Origin: Acidocella sp.
GTDB lineage: Bacteria > Pseudomonadota > Alphaproteobacteria > Acetobacterales > Acetobacteraceae
Direction of reading: 5' to 3'
DNA: 64,000 nucleotides
Assembly (NCBI GenBank): GCA_031291755.1
Contig: JARLIK010000002.1
Location: 1 to 64,000, forward strand
This document shows positions 55,987 to 60,278 of this stretch, piece after piece; the stretch's first letter is position 1; each line of letters begins with the position of its first letter. Below the pieces are notes generated by a model. That model had not been told where the DNA came from and did not search any database. It worked only from the letters and a program-made list of their open reading frames with translations. The translations under genes were made by a program, and so were the position numbers.

Positions 55987-56868
55987 TTAGGCTAGAACTC
56001 GCCCTGCCACAGCCTGCAACTTTGCCAAAGCTGCTGGGTCGCGGGCTTCCGGTGCAGTAATCAGCGCGTATTCCAGCGCACGGTCGCAGCCGGCTGGGCA
56101 AAGCCCGCGTTCGGCACTGATTTTCGGCAGCACGGCTTTGACCAGGCTGCGCGCCTTGTCGGCATTGCCGAGCAAAACCTTAATCACCGCGTCCACGGTT
56201 ACGGCGTCATGGTCCTCATGCCAGCAATCGAAATCGGTCACCATCGCCACGGTTGCGTAACAAATCTCGGCTTCGCGGGCCAGCTTGGCTTCCGGCATAT
56301 TGGTCATGCCGATGACCGAGCAGCCCCAGGAGCGGTACAGATTGCTCTCCGCCAGCGTGGAGAATTGCGGGCCTTCCATCACCAGATACGTTCCGCCACG
56401 CGTGACCGGCAGACCAAGCTCACGGGCGGAGGCTTCCAGCGCGTCGCCCAGGCGCGGGCAAACCGGATGGGCCATCGAGACATGGGCGACGCAGCCCGAG
56501 CCGAAGAAGGTTTTGGCGCGGGCGAAGCTGCGGTCGATGAACTGGTCAACGATCACGAAATGTCCCGGCGGCAATTCGGCCTTCAGTGAACCAACCGCCG
56601 AGAGCGAGAGAATATCGGTGACGCCGACCCGCTTCAGGGCGTCAATATTGGCGCGATAATTCAACTCGGACGGGGACATGCGATGGCCGCGCCCATGGCG
56701 AGGCAGAAACACCACTTTGGTGCCTTCAAACTGCCCGATCAGCAGTTCATCGGAAGGCTCACCCCAGGGTGACTCCACCTTTTCCCAATGCTTATCGGTT
56801 AGCCCCTCGATATCATAGAGACCTGAACCGCCGATGATGCCGATGACCGGCGTAATGACTTCAGACAT
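55987..56868 (-). CDS. mtnP: S-methyl-5'-thioadenosine phosphorylase
   Basis: VIGIIGGSGLYDIEGL; FLPRHGRGHRMSPSELNYRANIDALK; MEGPQFSTLAESNLYRSWGCSVIGMTNMPEAKLAREAEICYAT. Confidence 0.95.
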   Translation of the reverse strand: MSEVITPVIGIIGGSGLYDIEGLTDKHWEKVESPWGEPSDELLIGQFEGTKVVFLPRHGRGHRMSPSELNYRANIDALKRVGVTDILSLSAVGSLKAELPPGHFVIVDQFIDRSFARAKTFFGSGCVAHVSMAHPVCPRLGDALEASARELGLPVTRGGTYLVMEGPQFSTLAESNLYRSWGCSVIGMTNMPEAKLAREAEICYATVAMVTDFDCWHEDHDAVTVDAVIKVLLGNADKARSLVKAVLPKISAERGLCPAGCDRALEYALITAPEARDPAALAKLQAVAGRVLA

Positions 56869-56874
56869 CCGGCT

Positions 56875-57597
56875 TTAAGCCACGTCTCGCCAGATTTTGC
56901 GTTTGGTAGCAATCGCCAGCAAGGTGAGGAAAATCAGGAAGATCACCGCCCGCAGGCCAATTTGCTTGCGCGCATCGAGATTGGGGTCAGAGGCCCAGGT
57001 GAGGAAGGCCGCAACGTCGGAAGCTTCCTGGGCGGTGGTCGCCTTGGTGCCGTCGGCATAGGTGACAGCATTATCCGTCAACGGTGCCGGCATCGCGATC
57101 TGGTTACCGGGGTAGGCGGCATTATAATAATGCTTCGCCATCAGGGTCACATCGGCCGGAGGGGCCTGATAGCCGGTAAGCAGATTATAGATATATTCGG
57201 TGCCCTTCGGCCGGGCGGCAACAATGTTCGAGAGATCGGGCGGAACAGCCCCGCCAAACGCAGCGGCGGCCTGGGATTTTGGCAGAGCGCTGATGAGACG
57301 GTCATCTAATGTGGCTGGCCGGTTGTCCAGCTTGATGCTGGCAGTGATGTCGGCCACCTGTTCGGTGGTCAGGCCAAGGGCGGTCAGGTCACGGTAATGC
57401 AGCGCGTTGGCTGAATGGCAACTTGCGCAGGCGGTTTGATAAACCAGGAAACCGCGTTGCAGGGCAGCTTGGTCGTACGACCCAAAGGTTCCTTGTGATT
57501 GCCAATGCAGCGGGCTGAGTGTGTCCTCGGCGTAAGCAGCGGAGCCAAAGGCGAGGAAAGCCGCCAGCAGGGCGGCAGCGGAGATGCCAAGTTTCAT
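56875..57597 (-). CDS. petC: Cytochrome c1 of a bc1-type complex
   Basis: VYQTACASCHSANALHYRDLTALGL; PPDLSNI; GNQIAMPAPLTDNAVTYADGTKATTAQEASDVAAFLTWASDPNLDARKQIG; C-terminal TM anchor. Confidence 0.93.
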   Translation of the reverse strand: MKLGISAAALLAAFLAFGSAAYAEDTLSPLHWQSQGTFGSYDQAALQRGFLVYQTACASCHSANALHYRDLTALGLTTEQVADITASIKLDNRPATLDDRLISALPKSQAAAAFGGAVPPDLSNIVAARPKGTEYIYNLLTGYQAPPADVTLMAKHYYNAAYPGNQIAMPAPLTDNAVTYADGTKATTAQEASDVAAFLTWASDPNLDARKQIGLRAVIFLIFLTLLAIATKRKIWRDVA

Positions 57598-58718
57598 TAT
57601 TTTGACTCCCGCGCGGTGACGAGTGGGGTGAGCACCAGAAAATGCAGAAAATACCAGCCGATGAAAATGATCATCAGGATCGCGTTAATCGTCGAGGGAC
57701 CGGCGGCGGCGGTCATGCCGAGCGCAATCACATCGAGTCCGAGGATCACCACCAGTAGCTTGTAGAGAAAACCAGGCTCTGAACGAGGGTCTGAGCGGTC
57801 CAGCCAAGGCATCGCGAACAGTACCGCAAAGGCAGCGAAGAAGGCCACGATACCCCCTTCGGTTCCTGGCAGAGCATGTGTCACGGCGGCCGCGGGCAGA
57901 AGGTACCAGGGCGGCGTCATCACGGCGGGCACCAGCAGCGGGTTGGCGGGTGCCGCGTTCAGCGGGTTTTCACCCAGATGCGGGGCAAAGAATACCAGCA
58001 CCGCAAACAGCAGCACATAAACCGACACCGCCACGAAATGATGGCTGGTGTAGTAGGGGTGCAAGGGTACGGTCTTTTTGGCAACCGGGGCGACGGCCTG
58101 CTTGGCATAATAATGTAAAACCAGCACGCCAAGAGCTATGAATGTCAGCAGCCCATGCATCATGGCCACGTGCCCGAGCGTGCCGTGGCCAGCCGGACCG
58201 CCCAAGACCCAGTTGGAAATATTACCAGGGAAGCTGGAAAGCCCAGCACCGGCCAGTGTCACGTCATGCAGGCTCCAGTGACTGACCGCGCCATCCTGCA
58301 TCGCATAGCCAAGGTAACCGACCAGCATCATCAGCAGCAGAAATGCCAGCTTGAGCCCCCATACCAATTCGCCGGGCAGCCGGTAGGCCCCGGTGATCAG
58401 GGCGTGGAAAATCGCCAGATATACGGCGGCGAACAGCATGGTGGTGCCGGTGGCGTGGAAGGAGCGGATCAGCCAGCCGTCATTGACGTTGCGCATGATG
58501 AACTGGATGGAATTATACGCGCCGTGGTCTGACGCCACATAATAGGCCGACAGCACCGCGCCGGAGAGCATCAGAAAGATCAGCGTTCCGGTGATCAGCG
58601 TGCCAAGGGCCGACAGATAAGGCCGGTTGGCGGGCAACGGCTTGTCACACACTTGAGCGCGAAAACAGGCGGCGAGGGGAAGCCGGGAGTCCAGCCAGGA
58701 TTTGGTTTGGTCTGACAT
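57597..58718 (-). CDS. petB: Cytochrome b of a bc1-type complex, divergent at key motifs
   Basis: FIMRNVNDGWLIRSFHATGTTMLFAAVYLAIFHAL; MMHGLLTFIALGVLVLHYYAK; PPWYLLP at the PEWY position. Confidence 0.87.
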   Translation of the reverse strand: MSDQTKSWLDSRLPLAACFRAQVCDKPLPANRPYLSALGTLITGTLIFLMLSGAVLSAYYVASDHGAYNSIQFIMRNVNDGWLIRSFHATGTTMLFAAVYLAIFHALITGAYRLPGELVWGLKLAFLLLMMLVGYLGYAMQDGAVSHWSLHDVTLAGAGLSSFPGNISNWVLGGPAGHGTLGHVAMMHGLLTFIALGVLVLHYYAKQAVAPVAKKTVPLHPYYTSHHFVAVSVYVLLFAVLVFFAPHLGENPLNAAPANPLLVPAVMTPPWYLLPAAAVTHALPGTEGGIVAFFAAFAVLFAMPWLDRSDPRSEPGFLYKLLVVILGLDVIALGMTAAAGPSTINAILMIIFIGWYFLHFLVLTPLVTARESK

Positions 58719-58733: not shown

Positions 58734-59294
58734 TTAACCGAGCTGAATTTGCGTAGCGTTGAGGAAGGTAAAGCGTGGAATCGCGAGATTTTTCGGGGCC
58801 GGGCCGCTGCGCACGCGCCCTAGCGGGTCGTAGATGCTGCCGTCGCACGGGCAGGTCCAGCCGTCGAGCGGGCCGCGCGGATCGGTAGGGCTGTTGCCCA
58901 GAAGTTCACATGAGATACCGGTATTCAGCCCGACAACGACCACAAAACTCTCGTAGCCGGGCTTAACACGGTCGGTATAATCGGCCGGGTCGGGTAAGGA
59001 AGATGGCACAACGGCCTGATTATCGGCAATCTGCTGCGGGGTCAGCTTGCGGATATAGATTGGCTGGCCGAGCCACATGACTCGCAATCCGGTGTTAGGC
59101 GCAATGCCGCCTACCTCAATAATGGGATTCGATACTGCAAGCTCGGCAGTGGTTGGGTTCAGCGCGTCGATAAACGGCCAAGCCGTCGCTCCCAGCGCCA
59201 CGGCACCTGCCGAAACCGTCAGGATCTTCAGAAAATCGCGCTTAGCTGGGGCTTCCACCCCGTCCTCAACCGCATGTGCCGCTGCATTTGCCAT
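58734..59294 (-). CDS. petA: Rieske-type subunit of a bc1-type complex with degenerate cluster-binding motifs
   Basis: [31 protein letters not shown] (Tat/TM anchor); [13 protein letters not shown]...[29 protein letters not shown]. Confidence 0.87.
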
Positions 59295-59414
59295 ATTTTG
59301 TCCTACCCTGCCAGCTCATGGCACGCCCGAGGGCGCTCCCACATAACGCATGACTGGAACGCCGGAAAAATTCAAGAGTGGATGGCGCGGCGTTTCGAGG
59401 TTAAGGATCGGAAC

Positions 59415-60278
59415 ATGCAAGAAATTACTGAAACCCCTCCCCACGAATCTCTGAAACCTGATGCTTCGGCTTGGTTCGCTGCATTGCGCGACAGGATTTG
59501 TGCCGCCTTTGAAGCGATTGAGGATGAGGCCGGGCCGAATCCCGGCCGGTTTGTTCGCACTCCCTGGGAGCGCCCGGAGGGCGGTGGCGGCGTGATGAGC
59601 GTGATGCGCGGCCAGGTGTTTGAGAAGGTCGGGGTGAATGTCTCGACCGTGGCGGGTAAATTTTCGCCTGATTTTGCCAAGCAGATGCGCGGCGCGACGG
59701 AAGATGGCCAGTTCTGGGCCTCGGGCATCAGTCTGGTCGCGCATTTGCGCAGCCCGCGGGTGCCGGCGGTGCATATGAACACCAGGATGATCGTGACCGG
59801 CAAAGGCTGGTTCGGTGGCGGTGGGGACTTAACCCCGCTGCAACCGGGGACACCGCAGGCGGCTGAGGATACGGCGTTTTTCCATGCCGCGTATCGGGCC
59901 GCCTGTGATAAAAATGACCCCACCTATTATGAAAAATTTAAAAAATGGTGCGACGAATATTTTTTTCTGCCGCACCGCAATGAGCCGCGCGGCGCCGGCG
60001 GAATTTTTTACGATTATCTGGATACCGGCGATGTGGCGGCGGATTTTGCCTTCACCCGCGATGTCGGTGAGGCATTTTTAGCCGCTTACCCGGCCATTGT
60101 GCGGCGCCGTATGGGGGAAGCATGGTCGCCCGAGGAACGCGAGGCGCAACTCATTCGCCGTGGCCGTTATGTCGAATTCAACCTGCTGTACGATCGTGGC
60201 ACGACCTTTGGCCTCAAAACCGGCGGCAACACCGAGGCGATCCTGATGTCGCTGCCGCCGGAAGTGAAGTGGCCCTAA
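59415..60278 (+). CDS. hemF: Oxygen-dependent coproporphyrinogen III oxidase
   Basis: [76 protein letters not shown]. Confidence 0.97.

Follow-up and report, generated by a model that had tools for sequence, protein, structure and literature searches.

The cytochrome bc1 complex of Acidocella and Acidiphilium has been described as "deranged" by Degli Esposti et al. (2023; PMC10715153), with the ligands of heme bH lost and cytochrome c1 intact. In the available part of that paper, the Rieske proteins are reported to be without three or four of the cluster ligands, the loss of bH ligands is given as always paired with the loss of Rieske, and Acidiphilium is given as having no Rieske gene. Stabilisation of Complex I was proposed there as the role of the deranged complex, and iron oxidation by Cyc2/Cyc1 as the bypass that feeds the oxidase. 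The decay of the Acidocella bc1 is already known from this work; the order of the losses and the identity of what has been kept are new against its available part, even though parts of these additions may already be in its supplementary figures.

The stretch of DNA analysed herein (the window) is 64,000 nucleotides in length and carries a petABC operon, for which the initial annotation had pointed to a single lost heme bH ligand in cytochrome b. Whether one ligand alone had been lost can now be answered: the defect is wider, and the replaced residue is one part of the decay of the whole complex, as published for Acidocella (PMC10715153).

The petABC locus and its respiratory setting

As contig 37 of a genome of 2.59 Mb (38 contigs, estimated 84% complete), the window groups inside Acidocella when four proteins are concatenated for tree building. 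Its petB shares 80% and 64% identity with genes of Acidocella sp. RAIPT19 and Acidocella sp. 20-57-95, and is the sole cytochrome b gene found in the genome. Exactly one cytochrome b was found in each of the 36 genomes with a match among 38 of Acidocella, and a second, intact bc1 was not detected elsewhere in the window genome, at its 84% completeness. The gene order hemF, petA, petB, petC, mtnP (Table 1) is common to the Acidocella locus and to the sister genus, herein g96; an mtnP-like gene adjoins petC in some Acidocella loci as well as in g96. Based on its kinship, on the presence of reaction-centre genes in five of the six genomes tested and on the agreement with PMC10715153, g96 is probably Acidiphilium.

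An operon for an aa3 oxidase is present in the window genome, the CuA motif of subunit II being kept (CNQICGVNHDAM), together with two matches to cytochrome bd; a second heme-copper oxidase was not found in this incomplete assembly. Alternative Complex III was considered as a substitute and rejected, the only NrfD gene of the window genome being located with a Mo-enzyme, a 4Fe-4S protein and a rhodanese-like protein. This cluster, with a molybdopterin-type oxidoreductase, lies on contig 18 (L157, 4679-9158), and among the 38 Acidocella genomes an NrfD gene was seen only in the window genome, G330, and G257. Photosynthetic reaction-centre genes (PF00124) were identified in G330 (contig 61), in G284 (contig 15) and in the five g96 genomes mentioned above; the window genome, which is incomplete, yielded none. 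In relatives that combine such genes with a bc1 unable to Q-cycle, cyclic electron flow needs another route, and the re-reduction of cytochrome c has to be explained.

Table 1. Positions in the window of the petABC genes, their neighbours, and the diagnostic residues of cytochrome b
Feature	Position	Strand	Remarks
mtnP-like	55987..56868	-	downstream of petC; syntenic marker; name from our own reading of the protein
petC, cytochrome c1, 240 aa	56875..57597	-	CASCH 57415-57429; axial Met in AMPAPL 57091-57093; seemingly intact
petB, cytochrome b, 373 aa	57597..58718	-	both bL ligands present; Ala at the helix-B bH position
Qo-site motif PEWY changed to PPWY	57903..57914	-	Glu to Pro in 46/46, both genera
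H202 codon (bovine H196), orphan helix-D bH ligand	58113..58115	-	His in the window; kept by only 10/46
H188 codon (bovine H182), helix-D heme bL ligand	58155..58157	-	His in 45/46
H105 codon CAC (+17; bovine R100)	58404..58406	-	Arg in 31/35 Acidocella
A102 codon GCG (+14; bovine H97), helix-B heme bH ligand lost	58413..58415	-	
H88 codon CAC (bovine H83), helix-B heme bL ligand	58455..58457	-	His in 46/46, both genera
petA, Rieske-type subunit, 186 aa	58734..59294	-	C139 to N124, H141 to G126, H161 to D151; C158 kept (C148)
hemF-like	59274..60278	+	divergent orientation to petABC; exact start codon not certain; flanking syntenic marker opposite mtnP; name from our own reading of the protein

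Heme, cluster and quinone sites of the three subunits

The reading frame of petB is intact, and its product is a cytochrome b of the bc-complex type: both the N-terminal domain (Pfam Cytochrome_B, PF00033, 94.6 bits) and the C-terminal domain (Cytochrom_B_C, PF00032, 61.2 bits) are matched, and the fold agrees, the AlphaFold2 model, a heme-free prediction with pLDDT of 91.5, giving query TM values of 0.82-0.89 against cytochromes b in the PDB. The residue numbers and roles assigned to PetB positions follow what is generally known of the bovine complex. Upon rechecking of the minus strand, the coordinates and codons of the ligand stretch in the initial annotation were found to be correct, as were its Ala at helix-B +14 and His at +17 (H88, A102, H105) and its intact helix-D pair with a spacing of 14 residues (H188, H202). 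Among the four His for hemes bL and bH, the bL pair H88 and H188 is present and the helix-B ligand of bH is Ala; the claims that bL ligation is kept and bH ligation lost both stand. Other markers of the bH pocket have disappeared too, the equivalent of bovine G116 being Lys123. The Ala at +14 is not a sequencing slip, because A, S, A, and V occupy the same position in the closest relatives L066, L067, L068, and L069, respectively. In a comparison with 45 canonical cytochromes b from Acetobacteraceae, every one of them had His at both +14 positions. The quinone sites are also altered: neither the Glu of the Qo PEWY motif nor the Lys and Asp of the Qi site, as expected of a Q-cycling bc1, is present, the Qi positions being His226 and His227.

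The window PetA is without three of the four [2Fe-2S] ligands, and N124, G126, C148, and D151 stand where a Rieske protein has two Cys and two His; the disulfide pair C129/C150 is retained. This assignment comes from an alignment with the intact relative G196, gap-free across the cluster region (GWTCPCDGS against VVIGICPHRGCIPVGN...GWLCPCHGA). The reading of PetA CELLGN as CTHLGC was rejected, since this alignment places the disulfide Cys at C129 and the first ligand Cys at N124. All 35 Acidocella Rieske proteins read carry N, then G or A, then C, S or A, and then D at the ligand positions, with the disulfide Cys pair kept, so that Cys158 is additionally lost in some of them. Upon superposition, the predicted head of the window PetA lies 1.4 A from bovine Rieske 1rie, and a Rieske-type fold is still predicted. 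Pfam Rieske (PF00355) gave no match to the window PetA, and NCBIfam TIGR01416 (Rieske_proteo equivalog, cut-off 97.4) matched it with 131.8 bits; in practice, the standard NCBIfam model still labels a ligand-poor PetA as an iron-sulfur subunit. Cytochrome c1 retains both the CXXCH motif and the axial Met in the window PetC and in 35 of 35 Acidocella proteins.

On these residues the window bc1 is almost certainly unable to run the Q-cycle, and the break in the standard Q-cycle predicted by the initial annotation is borne out on a wider basis than the heme bH site. That annotation had also offered the alternative that heme bH is re-registered by one helical turn; in the corresponding rival reading, the heme would be held by His+17 and H202 and the complex would still turn over. 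Both H105 and H202 do exist in the window PetB, but +17 is the canonical Arg in 31 of the 35 Acidocella proteins, including all the nearest relatives, in which +14 is equally non-His, and His+17 is therefore not a conserved substitute ligand. In addition, the other glycine of the bH pocket is replaced by Lys123, and the Rieske ligands, the PEWY Glu, and the Qi residues are gone, so that no Q-cycle would be expected even with a heme at bH. The one-turn shift is left unsupported and is very improbable.

Conservation and the order of losses in the two genera

For the conservation analysis, 35 cytochromes b of Acidocella and 11 of g96 were combined into a set of 46. The four residues of the bL pocket (window G53, H88, G137, and H188, corresponding to bovine G48, H83, G130, and H182) are kept in 100, 100, 100, and 98% of the set, and those of the bH pocket (bovine G34, H97, G116, and H196) in 24, 20, 15, and 22%. 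The PEWY Glu is Pro throughout (0% kept), the Qi Asp is gone in all 46, and the Qi Lys is gone in 45 (2% kept). The separation is confined to these named pocket residues, conservation over whole helix halves of cytochrome b giving no clean separation. One petB, L071 of G321, is the only Acidocella cytochrome b seen in which a heme bL ligand is also lost (helix-D His to Leu).

The petABC genes are under purifying selection, though constrained less than their neighbours hemF and mtnP: the median omega, by pairwise Nei-Gojobori and taken for each gene from the pairs where it was readable, was 0.16 for petA, 0.20 for petB, and 0.12 for petC, against 0.08 for hemF and 0.06 for mtnP. Between close pairs (dS < 0.26), which were used because omega of the canonical cytochrome b is unreliable at larger distances, the canonical protein gave 0.06-0.16 and that of Acidocella 0.08-0.29.

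The two bH His never occur together among the 35 Acidocella cytochromes b. The helix-B His is present in nine, all within one part of the genus, and the helix-D His in ten from other parts, including the clade of the window, implying, if His was not regained, that the Acidocella ancestor would have had both, with no fewer than two separate inactivations of the site whatever the tree, and four on the tree found here. Such a regain is possible, since Tyr-to-His is a single base change. Within Acidocella the loss of Rieske preceded that of bH, because every Acidocella Rieske protein is already ligand-poor.

In g96, neither bH His was found in any of the 11 cytochromes b. The Rieske protein of G196 (L136, 2231-2782) nevertheless has the complete ligand set (CPHRGC, CPCHGA) and the disulfide pair, with both bH His of its cytochrome b replaced (Glu, Gly), and the heme bH site was therefore lost first in this genus. 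The Ser and Tyr beside the cluster, which tune the cluster potential in Rieske proteins, are Ala and Phe in G196. In the other g96 species, three Rieske proteins are full-length and ligand-poor, one is shortened, and six are a membrane anchor only, the petA of the latter six species (L128, L129, L137, L138, L148, and L153) encoding a single-helix anchor of 47-73 aa between hemF and petB. The segment with the axial Met is lost and CXXCH kept in c1 of L129 (G153), L139 (G264), and L153 (G333), and thus c1 function is not universal in the sister genus. The PPWY and the lost Qi Asp shared by the two genera suggest that changes at the quinone sites would have come before the losses of both bH and Rieske.

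The G196 petA is located at the base of the Acidocella and g96 Rieske group, outside the canonical ones (support 94, on a long branch), and the closest sequence to its product by identity is a canonical one (50%). Its lateral gain is disfavoured by this basal place, by the g96-like anchor, and by its normal place in the operon; vertical retention is preferred but not proven.

Retention of the complex and comparison with known systems

We consider it probable that petABC of the window is a vertically inherited operon from which Q-cycle catalysis has been lost, the complex being kept for a structural or assembly role. In detail, PetA, PetB, and PetC would still assemble in the membrane into a complex in which hemes bL and c1 are bound and both heme bH and a normal Rieske cluster are missing, and this remnant would be unable to bifurcate electrons from ubiquinol. 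It could serve the stability of a supercomplex or of Complex I, as in the proposal of PMC10715153, and c1 might act as a membrane-tethered cytochrome c ahead of the aa3 oxidase, with ubiquinol oxidised instead by the cytochrome bd encoded in the window genome. The selection on the three genes makes it likely that the complex is still made and assembled, and the predicted folds matching cytochrome b and Rieske structures support an assembled remnant. As to what it is assembled for, a structural role is the best of several options, at about an even chance; the six g96 petA anchors without a redox head fit the need for the membrane part. The loss of the c1 Met in G153, G264, and G333 and of the bL ligand in L071 counts against this reading.

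The near-invariance of the p-side sites could also be taken to mean that the complex was repurposed for redox chemistry outside a Q-cycle. Here bL and c1, perhaps joined by an unusual Rieske centre, would exchange electrons between cytochrome c and either the quinone pool or donors in the periplasm. The bL pocket has been kept selectively (98-100%) together with the heme ligation of c1, c1 is the most constrained of the subunits, and a CuA-type aa3 oxidase is retained without any other recognised quinol:cytochrome c route; the close relatives with reaction-centre genes would, moreover, need c-type cytochromes to be re-reduced. In canonical bc1 structures, however, bL and c1 are too distant for direct electron transfer, and the Rieske protein that should bridge them is without its ligands. 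The Qo residues are lost as well, and iron oxidation by Cyc2/Cyc1 has been published as an alternative donor (PMC10715153). Such repurposing is unlikely. A dispensable relic that is disappearing with no present function is judged improbable to a similar degree. The ligand losses are repeated and ongoing, petA is worn down to a stub in the sister genus, omega of petB is two to three times that of the neighbours, and values of 0.1-0.2 could also come from the slow decay of such a relic; no petB was found in 2 of 38 Acidocella and 2 of 13 sister-genus genomes, three of these four being incomplete. The compared reading frames have, however, stayed open in both genera, which represent a deep radiation. 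Omega lies far below 1, and in Acidocella the heme sites of bL and c1 hardly vary.

These data turn the retention of the complex into a testable puzzle. Selection protects heme bL on the p-side, c1, and the Rieske anchor, and not the bH/Qi side or the Rieske head. A bolder proposal, which we put forward only tentatively and regard as rather doubtful, is that both genera independently dismantled bc1 in opposite order, Acidocella starting with the Rieske ligands and the probable Acidiphilium clade with heme bH, each keeping bL, c1, and the Rieske membrane anchor for a selected function of bL/c1 other than the Q-cycle; G196 would then represent a naturally occurring quinol:cytochrome c reductase of the linear, non-bifurcating kind. 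In any case, G196 is a natural species in which a cytochrome b without bH ligands is paired with a complete Rieske ligand set.

The closest described system is the deranged bc1 of PMC10715153, which, as far as its available part goes, has in common with the window the loss of bH His, a ligand-poor Rieske protein with the disulfide Cys pair, an intact c1, the petABC order, and a retained oxidase. The window conforms in its partial loss of bH His, in a PetA with three ligands lost and C129/C150 kept, and in its Acidocella host, and differs in being a further Acidocella species. Beyond the available part of that account, all Rieske ligands are kept with bH lost in G196 of the sister genus, and six species keep an anchor stub. 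Two of its statements need amendment accordingly: the loss of bH ligands is not always joined to that of Rieske, and in the sister genus petA has often been cut down to the anchor and is not absent. An incomplete bH site with a broken Q-cycle is likewise found in a chloroplast cytochrome b6 mutant (Malnoe 2011, as cited in PMC10715153), the closest analogue of G196; as described there, this mutant was made in the laboratory and its Rieske protein is intact, unlike the window complex with its incomplete Rieske ligand set. With the canonical alphaproteobacterial bc1 of Rhodobacter and Paracoccus, the window shares the operon order, the fold, the heme bL site, and the c1 heme site, but it differs from them in having PPWY for PEWY and in being without a complete bH site, the Rieske ligand set, and the Qi Lys and Asp.
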